Positions 224 to 3,043 of a DNA stretch of 63,859 nt are shown piece after piece (the stretch's first letter is position 1; each line of letters begins with the position of its first letter). A program made the position numbers and the translations under genes. The notes under the pieces were generated by a model. The model saw nothing but the letters and a program-made list of their open reading frames with translations. It searched no databases and was not told where the DNA came from. Source of the stretch: Deltaproteobacteria bacterium (GTDB lineage Bacteria; Desulfobacterota; Syntrophia; Syntrophales; UBA2192); NCBI GenBank assembly GCA_012728915.1, contig JAAYEC010000071.1, positions 1 to 63,859 on the forward strand. Direction: 5' to 3'.

Positions 224-943
224 TCAGTCGCGTTCCATTTCGGTCTTCCAGACCTTCCAGACGTTGCCGACCAGGTCCGGGCCGGGTTTGAGAGTCAGCT
301 TGCCGGGACGCCACCCCGAGGGTGTGGCCTCCGTACCCCCCGTGTTGCGCACGTGCTGGAAGGCCTGAACCTGACGCAGGCTCTCCGAGACGTTGCGGCC
401 CACAGGCGGCGTCAGCACCTCGTAGCCCTGGATCACCCCGTCGGGATCGATGATGAATCGCCCCCGCGTCTCCACTCCCGCCACGTCGTCGAACACCCCG
501 AAGGCCGTCCCAACCTTGCCCCCAACATCCGAAAGCATCGGAAACGGGATGCCCTTCTTGACCATCTTGGAGAGCTCGTGGTCCACCCACATCTTGTGCA
601 CGAACACGCTGTCGATGCTCATCGTCAGCACCTGAACACCCAGCTTCTCGAATTCCGCGTATCGATCGGCGACCGCCGATACCTCCGTCGCTCAGACGAA
701 GGTGAAATCCCCCGGGTAGAAGCACAAAAGCACCCACTTGCCCAAGTAGTCCGACAGGTGCACGTTGATGAACTTGCCCTGGAAATATCCCGGCGCCATG
801 AAATCGGGCGCCTTCCGGCCGATCATGATCATGGGTTTCACCTCCTTCTTCTCTTCCTGTTGTGTCGCCGTTCCCTCTTTCACCGCTTCGCCGACGAGCC
901 CGCCCGTCGGCCTTGCGCATCCTGCCTTGATCTCTTCAGCCAA
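224..943 (-). CDS. prxU: Selenocysteine-containing peroxiredoxin (PrxU type), UGA at codon 84 read as Sec
   Basis: This AhpC/TSA-family peroxidase reduces hydrogen peroxide and organic peroxides in the cytoplasm. An in-frame TGA (692-694) sits exactly at the peroxidatic cysteine position in [19 protein letters not shown]. On both sides the reading frame continues with strong family similarity ([36 protein letters not shown]). A bacterial SECIS hairpin follows the UGA (separate entry), so I read it as selenocysteine, giving 239 residues. The only cysteines are Cys9 and Cys74; there is no C-terminal resolving Cys. The start used is TTG at 941-943, eight bases after AAGGAGG (952-958). An ATG at 830-832 also follows an AAGGAGG (841-847) at eight bases and would give 202 residues. 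The gene is 46 bases downstream of catalase and close to a PerR-type regulator. Selenocysteine machinery must be encoded elsewhere. Confidence 0.9.
665..680 (-). promoter_or_regulatory. Bacterial SECIS hairpin of prxU
   Basis: On the minus strand, 11 bases after the UGA (692-694), AUCGGC-GGUC-GCCGAU forms a perfect 6-bp stem (680-675 with 670-665) closed by a GGUC loop. A stem about 11 nt from the UGA and a loop with G in its first two positions match the known rule for bacterial SECIS elements; the E. coli fdhF loop also contains GGUC. The hairpin lies inside the coding frame, as bacterial SelB-dependent elements do. Confidence 0.85.
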
Positions 944-989
944 TTTCCTTACCTCCTTGTCATCGTTATGGTTCCCAATAACGAACAAC

Positions 990-2471
990 TCACCGATCCG
1001 TCTTCGGCACATCGGCAAGCGGAATGCCGATGGCCGCAGCAACCCCTCTTCCATAAGCCGGGTCGGCCTTGAGACAGTTGCCGATGTGCCGCATCTTTAC
1101 TTCCTCGGATGCCTCGTCGATGGCGCGGGCGGTGTTTTCGAAGAGCGCCTGCTTCTGCGCCGGGCTCATCAGGTTGAAGAGCAGGCCCGGCTGGGTGTAG
1201 TAGTCGCTGTCGTTCTTGCGGAAATCCCAGTGGCCGGCGGCCCCTTCCAGGGCAAGCGGCGGCTCGGAGAAGTCCGGCTGCTGCTGCCACTGGCCGAAGC
1301 TGTTGGGCTCGTAACCCAGGGTGCTGCCGTAGTTGCCGTCGACGCGCATGGCGCCGTCGCGGTGGAAACTGTGGTACGGGCACCGCGGTGCGTTGACCGG
1401 GATCTGGTGGTGGTTGACACCGAGCCGGTACCGCTGGGCATCGCCGTAGGAGAAGAGGCGTCCCTGGAGCATCTTGTCCGGTGAAAAGCCGATGCCCGGA
1501 ACCACGTTGGCCGGGTTGAAGGCGGACTGCTCCACGTCGGCAAAGTAGTTTTCCGGGTTGCGGTTCAATTCCAGGACGCCCACCTCGATCAGGGGATAGT
1601 CCTTTTTCAGCCACACTTTCGTGAGATCGAAGGGGTGGAACCGGTAGGTTGCCGCATCCTTTTCCGGCATGATCTGGACGGCCAGGGTCCAGCGGGGGAA
1701 CTCCCCTCTCTCGATGCTGTAGTACAGGTCGCGCTGATGGCTCTCCCGGCACTTGCCGATCACCGCCTCAGCTTCCTGGTCCGTGAGGTTCTTGATTCCC
1801 TGGTGGGTGGTCAGGTGGAACTTGACCCAGTACCGCTCCCGCTTCGGACTGATGAAACTGAAGGTGTGGCTGCCGAATCCGTGCATGTGCCGGTAGGTGG
1901 CCGGGATGCCACGGTCGCTCATCACGATGGTCACCTGGTGCAGGGCCTCGGGCAGCGAGCTCCAGAAGTCCCAGTTGTTCAGGGCGCTGCGCAGGTTCGT
2001 GCGGGGGTCGCGCTTGACGGCGTGGTTCAGATCGGGGAACTTCAGGGGGTCACGCAGGAAAAAGACGGGCGTGTTGTTCCCCACGAGGTCCCAGTTCCCC
2101 TCTTCAGTGTAGAACTTGACGGCGAAGCCCCGGATGTCGCGCTCCGCATCGGCGGCGCCTCGCTCGCCCGCCACGGTGGAAAAGCGGACAAAGCACTCGG
2201 TTTTCTTGCCGACCTGCGAGAAAAGCCTGGCCCTGGTATACCGGGTGATGTCCTTCGTGACGGTGAACGTGCCGAACGCCCCCGAACCCTTCGCGTGCAT
2301 CCGCCTCTCCGGGATCACCTCCCGGTCGAAGTGGGCGAGCTTTTCCAGGTACCAGACGTCTTGCAGCAGAACGGGGCCGCGAGGCCCCGCGGTCATGGTG
2401 TTCTGGTTGTCGACGACGGGTGCGCCGCTACGGGTGGTGAGCCTGCTCTTCGGGTCTTTTTTCCTGGCCAT
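990..2471 (-). CDS. katA: Monofunctional haem catalase
   Basis: This 493-residue clade-3-type catalase dismutates hydrogen peroxide to water and oxygen. The distal catalytic His59 is in [14 protein letters not shown]. The catalytic Asn is Asn132 in [11 protein letters not shown]. The proximal haem-ligand Tyr lies near residue 340 in [14 protein letters not shown]. The length is normal for small-subunit catalases and no signal peptide is seen, so it should be cytoplasmic. The ATG is preceded by GGGAGAGGAA. Upstream lies a PerR-box-like palindrome (2551-2565) and then the perR gene. Downstream on the same strand is the selenoprotein peroxiredoxin. Together these indicate a peroxide-inducible defence locus. 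Confidence 0.95.
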
Positions 2472-2550
2472 TTCCTCTCCCTATCCTTTTTTTGAAGACA
2501 CGTTTTATGGAGACCCTCTCAAGGCCTGCCTATTTTCAATTTTCCCTATT

Positions 2551-2565
2551 TTTTAATAATTATTC
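2551..2565 (-). promoter_or_regulatory. Candidate PerR box upstream of catalase
   Basis: TTTTAATAATTATTC matches 12 of the 14 fixed positions of the B. subtilis PerR box TTATAATNATTATAA and contains the palindrome AATAATTATT. It lies 80-94 bases upstream of the catalase ATG in an AT-rich island within otherwise GC-rich DNA. The adjacent regulator is PerR-like. Binding is inferred, not shown. Confidence 0.6.
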
Positions 2566-2593
2566 TTCATAACGGTCCGCAAAAAGTTCCCCA

Positions 2594-3043
2594 TCAATGT
2601 TTCTCCTGGCATTCAGGGCAAAGACCAAAGAAATCCAGGCGGTGATGGTAAATTTTATAGCCTGTTTTCCGGCTCATCTCCTCGCTGAGCGCATCGATGT
2701 TCACGAGTTCCGGATCCATCACCTTCTTGCACCTGACACAGATCGCATGCGGATGGGGCGACGGGTTGCTGCCGTCATATCGGTTGCTGCCGTCCGGGAA
2801 CCCGAGTTCGAGCACCTCATTGAGTTCCTTGAGAAGAGCGATGGTCTTGTAAACGGTTGCAAGGCTCGTCGTGGGGAATTCTGTCCTGACCTCCTGGTAG
2901 ATTTCGTCAACGCTCGGATGTCTTCGGCTGGCGGCAAGGATTTTCAGGATGGCCAGCCGCTGGGGTGTGATCCTGAAATCACGTTCCCGGAGCTTGGCGA
3001 GCATCTGCTCGACTCTCCTTTGCGGTTCAATTGAAGTTGCCAA
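2594..3043 (-). CDS. perR: Fur-family peroxide-responsive repressor (PerR-like)
   Basis: This is a 149-residue Fur-family winged-helix dimer. The DNA-recognition region is RITPQRLAILKIL to SLATVYKTIALL. The second domain carries two CxxC pairs (Cys102/105 and Cys142/145) for structural zinc. The PerR regulatory metal ligands are all found: His42, Asp90 (NRYDG), His97 and His99 (HPHAIC) and Asp110. An Asp rather than Glu at the last position is the feature that separates PerR from Fur. The TTG start at 3041-3043 gives the usual family length. An ATG at 3002-3004 with AAGGAGA nine bases upstream would give 136 residues. A consensus promoter lies upstream. The neighbours are catalase and peroxiredoxin. 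Confidence 0.85.
   Translation of the reverse strand: MATSIEPQRRVEQMLAKLRERDFRITPQRLAILKILAASRRHPSVDEIYQEVRTEFPTTSLATVYKTIALLKELNEVLELGFPDGSNRYDGSNPSPHPHAICVRCKKVMDPELVNIDALSEEMSRKTGYKIYHHRLDFFGLCPECQEKH

Follow-up and report, generated by a model that had tools for sequence, protein, structure and literature searches.

A selenocysteine-type peroxiredoxin gene (prxU) of a Syntrophales bacterium with a conserved second ribosome-binding site and possible second start inside its frame

The PrxU protein of Peptoclostridium (Eubacterium) acidaminophilum is the founding member of its family (reportedly described by Sohling et al. in 2001) and was reportedly published as a protein of 203 residues with selenocysteine (Sec) at position 47. 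In RefSeq the corresponding megaplasmid gene is annotated as prxU with a product of 240 residues (WP_084481301.1). PrxU is an already known selenoprotein with a curated model (NCBIfam NF040737, peroxi_PrxU), related in fold and active-site motif to the typical 2-Cys peroxiredoxins (AhpC/Prx1). Within this wider group, human Prx4 carries a Cys-bearing N-terminal extension ahead of its Prx1-type core. Closer to the organism studied here, selenoprotein peroxiredoxins are listed for the syntrophic deltaproteobacteria Syntrophus aciditrophicus and Syntrophobacter fumaroxidans, in passages that mention no start site, N-terminal Cys or resolving Cys (PMC1794560).

Identity of the gene and its surroundings

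The window analysed here is a stretch of 63,859 nucleotides from a Deltaproteobacteria bacterium of the order Syntrophales (assembly GCA_012728915.1, contig JAAYEC010000071.1), and the gene in question lies close to its first position, downstream of two genes on the same strand:

224..943, (-) strand: long frame of prxU from a TTG start to a TGA stop at 226-224, 239 residues including Sec84, translated with TGA as U
692..694, (-) strand: TGA codon of Sec84, the peroxidatic residue (192 of the 198 homologues read in all have TGA here, and 6 have Cys)
990..2471, (-) strand: katA catalase directly upstream of prxU, with a gap of 46 nt (Pfam Catalase, 635 bits)
2594..3043, (-) strand: Fur/PerR-type regulator upstream of katA (Pfam FUR; the best NCBIfam match, to a PerR model, falls short of that model's cut-off)

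When TGA is taken as Sec, the frame running from 943 to 224 encodes a complete AhpC/Prx1-type peroxiredoxin, its TTG start having been assigned by the Shine-Dalgarno sequence and alignment. The product matches NF040737 with 409.7 bits (cut-off 270) over model positions 2-233 of 233, contains the Pfam domains AhpC-TSA and 1-cysPrx_C, and has TFVU at residue 84, the peroxidatic T-x-x-U position. In its AlphaFold2 model the core is predicted with confidence (mean pLDDT 87.7), and the fold matches are typical 2-Cys peroxiredoxins, the closest solved relative being Arabidopsis PrxA/BAS1 (5zte, described as a C119S mutant), whose peroxidatic Cys column aligns with the TGA. The locus is one more member of the known PrxU family, and its selenoprotein part is ordinary.

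An earlier note on this DNA had recognized a selenoprotein peroxiredoxin of the PrxU type with a TGA on the peroxidatic Cys and family sequence on both flanks, as these matches and the read-through bear out. The coordinates that it gave, 224-943, are correct, although the minus strand went unmentioned (the (+) strand holds no peroxiredoxin and was rejected as the coding strand). As it had also anticipated, translation table 11 without recoding breaks the frame into two fragments, 224-631(-) and 692-1054(-). Its description of the gene as hidden is not really apt, since the PrxU family has a name and a curated model of its own, and the P. acidaminophilum gene is already annotated in RefSeq with the read-through. 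Three features had escaped the note: the second ribosome-binding site with its start inside the gene, an N-terminal Cys that is invariant, and the missing C-terminal resolving Cys.

The nearest relatives of the window gene are found in Syntrophaceae metagenome-assembled genomes (about 89-90% identity). The P. acidaminophilum protein is 65% identical to it over 97% of the query and shares the UGA at position 84, the extension with Cys9 and the lack of a C-terminal resolving Cys; its gene differs in having an upstream ATG in place of TTG, and it is followed by a gene for an Mrp/NBP35 ATPase, whereas the window prxU stands in a perR-katA-prxU row. This row (990-3043 plus prxU), in which regulator, catalase and prxU share one strand, is likely a peroxide-response operon. 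A conserved katA/perR neighbourhood was considered and rejected, as the gene order is not constant among relatives: of about 110 loci, 5 have katA beside prxU and 12 have a Fur homologue.

Selenocysteine codon and SECIS hairpin

The earlier note had pointed to a hairpin that starts 11 nt after the TGA and carries a GGUC loop, and we see both:

665..680, (-) strand: bacterial SECIS hairpin, stem AUCGGC/GCCGAU with the GGUC loop at 674-671 (assigned by covariation and the published bSECIS rules)

According to these rules the distance from UGA to the apical loop is 16-37 nt, the upper stem has 4-16 bp and the energy is -7.5 kcal/mol or lower, with a G in the first two loop positions and N1-N2 able to pair (PMC13188914). 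The window hairpin AUCGGC-GGUC-GCCGAU places its loop 17 nt after the UGA on an upper stem of 6 bp. Its energy is within the threshold (-8.5 kcal/mol for the centroid fold, which has the hairpin alone, minimum -12.2 kcal/mol), but it is not unusual against dinucleotide shuffles (z 0.2 to 0.8), and the minimum-energy fold of 61 nt favours a shifted triloop. Folding energy was therefore dropped as a SECIS criterion, and covariation was used instead.

The covariation is found at silent positions. The third bases of codons +6 and +7, which form the loop pair, are A..U in 113 and G..C in 75 of the TGA-bearing homologues (together 188/192), while at other Ala and Val codons of these genes all four bases occur in third position. 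On the tree the loop switched at least 21 times between its A-U and G-C states; the P. acidaminophilum hairpin has an AGUU loop where the window has GGUC. The third bases of codons +5 and +8 form Watson-Crick pairs in 189 of 192 genes, with all four pair types represented. Neither loop form is kept in the Cys homologues inspected (0/4). With at least 21 A-U/G-C swaps at silent positions, the homologues of this hairpin form an extensive natural collection on which the SECIS loop rule can be examined. Two TGA-bearing loci (L204 and L211, codons TCG ATA GCG) are without an A-U/G-C loop pair, and their SECIS elements may be built differently.

A search of the same genome (81 contigs, stated to be 100% complete), which the earlier note had proposed as a check, yielded tRNA-Sec (anticodon TCA), SelA, SelB and SelD. 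The selD gene (genome G000, contig C79:39544-40467, L013) itself contains an in-frame TGA, and the selenophosphate synthetase of this organism is likely a selenoprotein. SelD is known as a selenoprotein in other bacteria.

Already in the first set of relatives, taken from a genome collection, TGA was present at the column in 80 of 80. The full set of 198 was drawn from two overlapping collections and consists of those fetched homologues that the motif search recognized, the others being left out; it includes a few near-duplicates (e.g. L027/L111 and L061/L177), for which the thinned counts given below allow. The Sec/Cys pairs at this column that the earlier note had suggested comparing exist among these homologues, as in L125 (Cys) and L134 (Sec), two copies of the extended PrxU within one genome. 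In the Cys copy L125 the SECIS loop is gone, whereas the N-terminal Cys remains and a GGAGG still precedes the core ATG.

The UGA of the window is very probably decoded as Sec, a reading as well supported as sequence allows because covariation at silent positions of the hairpin follows the demands of a bacterial SECIS. Its rival, that a Cys codon was damaged in a pseudogene or misread in sequencing to give the TGA, could appeal to the split that a plain gene caller produces. It has a negligible probability given the covarying hairpin and the complete Sec machinery, and we regard it as refuted by the 192 homologues from many phyla with TGA in the same column.

N-terminal extension and its invariant cysteine

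Most PrxU proteins begin with an extension of 32-42 residues, which consists of one invariant Cys within a motif (GCARPTGG or SCVKPAKGP) and a variable linker. In the window the relevant features are as follows:

833..943, (-) strand: N-terminal extension of 37 residues, AGCARPTGG followed by a variable disordered linker, with synonymous diversity under the invariant motif
917..919, (-) strand: codon of Cys9, invariant in a 60-sequence alignment, the proposed resolving Cys
323..325, (-) strand: Thr207 where typical 2-Cys peroxiredoxins have their C-terminal resolving Cys (EATPSGW instead of EVCPAGW)

The extension motif appears to be translated, because its synonymous codons vary freely while the residues remain constant. 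In the AlphaFold2 model residues 18-34 of the linker have pLDDT below 50, as expected of a disordered segment; the model is of a monomer and cannot show whether Cys9 reaches Sec84.

Unlike the typical 2-Cys enzymes, the window PrxU combines this Cys-bearing extension with Sec as the peroxidatic residue and with ATPSGW in place of the VCPxxW motif that holds their resolving Cys. The loss is widespread in the family: the C-terminal Cys is absent from 153 and present in 13 of the extended homologues (n=166; the replacement is mostly Thr), compared with 12 and 17, respectively, of those lacking the extension (n=29). A tree test of extension against C-terminal Cys loss was not significant, with few independent events; replacement of the C-terminal Cys by the extension was thus dropped as a phylogenetic test and is kept as a lead.

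These observations suggest that in the long form Cys9, carried by the linker, resolves the oxidized Sec, a role proposed because Thr stands where the C-terminal resolving Cys would normally be. Rather unlikely, in our view, is that Cys9 serves inter-subunit disulfides or the docking of a redox partner, with the oxidized Sec being reduced by an external thiol alone (a 1-Sec mechanism). The extension of human Prx4, which also bears a Cys (a C51A entry and a C245 mutant entry are among the fold matches), makes other roles such as inter-subunit disulfides possible by analogy, although Prx4 is Cys-based, keeps its C-terminal resolving Cys and has no internal bacterial start. Short forms with neither Cys9 nor a C-terminal Cys also exist in Firmicutes. 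Against such a role speak the skew between extension and C-terminal Cys and the Cys-type copy L125, where the extension is present and the C-terminal Cys is again absent. A clade of loci (L078, L081, L086, L088, L091, L092 and L094, mostly from Syntrophomonadaceae and other Firmicutes) has neither extension nor C-terminal Cys; its members carry a Cys at 24 residues beyond the Sec, which may represent a third means of active-site resolution.

A second ribosome-binding site and possible second start within prxU

The boundary between extension and core coincides with a second set of initiation signals in the same frame:

951..958, (-) strand: Shine-Dalgarno sequence AAGGAGGT of the long start (TTG at 943-941), duplex energy -12.2 kcal/mol
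840..847, (-) strand: internal Shine-Dalgarno sequence AAGGAGGT, duplex energy -12.3 kcal/mol, kept in 152 of 160 extended homologues
830..832, (-) strand: internal in-frame ATG (Met38), the first residue of the core, predicted to yield a short form of 202 residues with Sec47

The P. acidaminophilum gene has the same arrangement, an internal AAGGAGG..ATG (AAAAAGGAGGAGATGTCTATG), from which a product of 203 residues with Sec47 is predicted. A start codon occurs at the core boundary in 160 of 161 extended homologues (ATG in 152, GTG in 7 and TTG in 1). Synonymous resampling of these genes leaves a Shine-Dalgarno 4-mer before this codon in 103±5 of 160 cases (maximum 118 in 300 runs) as against the 152 observed, and at the other ATGs of the same genes the 4-mer precedes 135 of 804. 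When the set is thinned to one representative per 85% identity, the internal Shine-Dalgarno sequence is found in 76 of 81. Anti-Shine-Dalgarno duplex energies of -8 kcal/mol or lower characterize the internal start in 147 of 160 extended prxU genes, whereas the base rate in the window is 3 of 33 long ORFs with an in-frame ATG of this energy at codons 20-60. The second ribosome-binding site and start are conserved beyond codon choice. Two starts are common rather than universal, the internal Shine-Dalgarno sequence being absent from L061, L072 and L177.

Homologues lacking the extension (L230, L231, L200, L201 and L078) start at the same place, with the same Shine-Dalgarno sequence untranslated; L230 and L231 are about 80% identical to the extended L151 and L152.

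On these grounds translation of the prxU mRNA very probably begins at two sites in one frame, and we infer that the gene yields both a long protein and a shorter one made up of the core. An unlikely alternative is that translation starts at 943 only and that AAGGAGGT..ATG at the core boundary reflects conservation of the linker peptide K-E-V-x-x-M or is left over from an ancestral start. In P. acidaminophilum RefSeq indeed gives only the long form, and the KE peptide favours AGGAG, a preference that by itself accounts for some two thirds of the Shine-Dalgarno matches (the null of 103/160). The excess over this null argues against a peptide constraint, as do 11 genes in which the internal GGAG lies in another codon frame and encodes another peptide (e.g. 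L146, CAAGGAGGAACGCGCATG, as well as L184, L194 and L197) and those where GTG or TTG replaces ATG and Met is absent. The internal site also equals the main start in strength (mean duplex energies of -10.5 and -10.6 kcal/mol, respectively), and a relic should not persist across phyla beside a freely varying linker.

The opposite possibility, that the internal start is the only real one and the extension an untranslated or misread leader, would agree with the strong Shine-Dalgarno sequence at the core start and with the 203 residues and Sec47 reportedly published for the E. acidaminophilum protein, the very values that the internal start predicts. It is nevertheless very improbable: the extension keeps its Cys and motif under free synonymous change, has a start of its own with a Shine-Dalgarno 4-mer in 154 of 156 cases, and is in frame with the core in all extended loci but L039 (on a 3-kb contig).

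Our preferred explanation as a whole, a Sec-decoded prxU with two starts and with Cys9 resolving in the long form, has in our estimate a probability of about 0.7. UGA 694-692 would be read as Sec84 by SelB and tRNA-Sec through the hairpin at 680-665, and the Sec84 selenolate would reduce peroxide; the catalase and Fur/PerR-type regulator nearby suggest a role in peroxide defence of this anaerobe. Initiation at the upstream site (TTG 943, Shine-Dalgarno sequence 958-951) would give the long form with the invariant Cys9 on a flexible linker, most likely the resolving thiol for the oxidized Sec, and initiation at the internal site (ATG 832, Shine-Dalgarno sequence 847-840) a core-only form with the same Sec as Sec47. 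For short subunits, resolution would depend on an external thiol or on Cys9 from an adjacent long subunit. More tentatively, and at somewhat less than even odds, the tandem in-frame ribosome-binding sites may supply long subunits with the tethered resolving Cys and short subunits without it for mixed oligomers, and so set the ratio of self-resolved to externally resolved selenium sites.

The second Shine-Dalgarno sequence and in-frame start in prxU are apparently unreported; our literature search, thin in subscription journals, found no description of internal translation starts in peroxiredoxins of bacteria, PrxU included. If the N-terminus of the 203-residue protein was measured on the protein itself, the short form would already have experimental support.

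Overall, the conserved second start and the tethered Cys are what this locus adds to the picture of the known PrxU family. A tethered N-terminal Cys that takes over from the C-terminal Cys would give a Prx1-type enzyme a different mode of active-site resolution. If the internal start is used, work on a single form sees only half of the enzyme, and both the annotation and the assays of PrxU would change.
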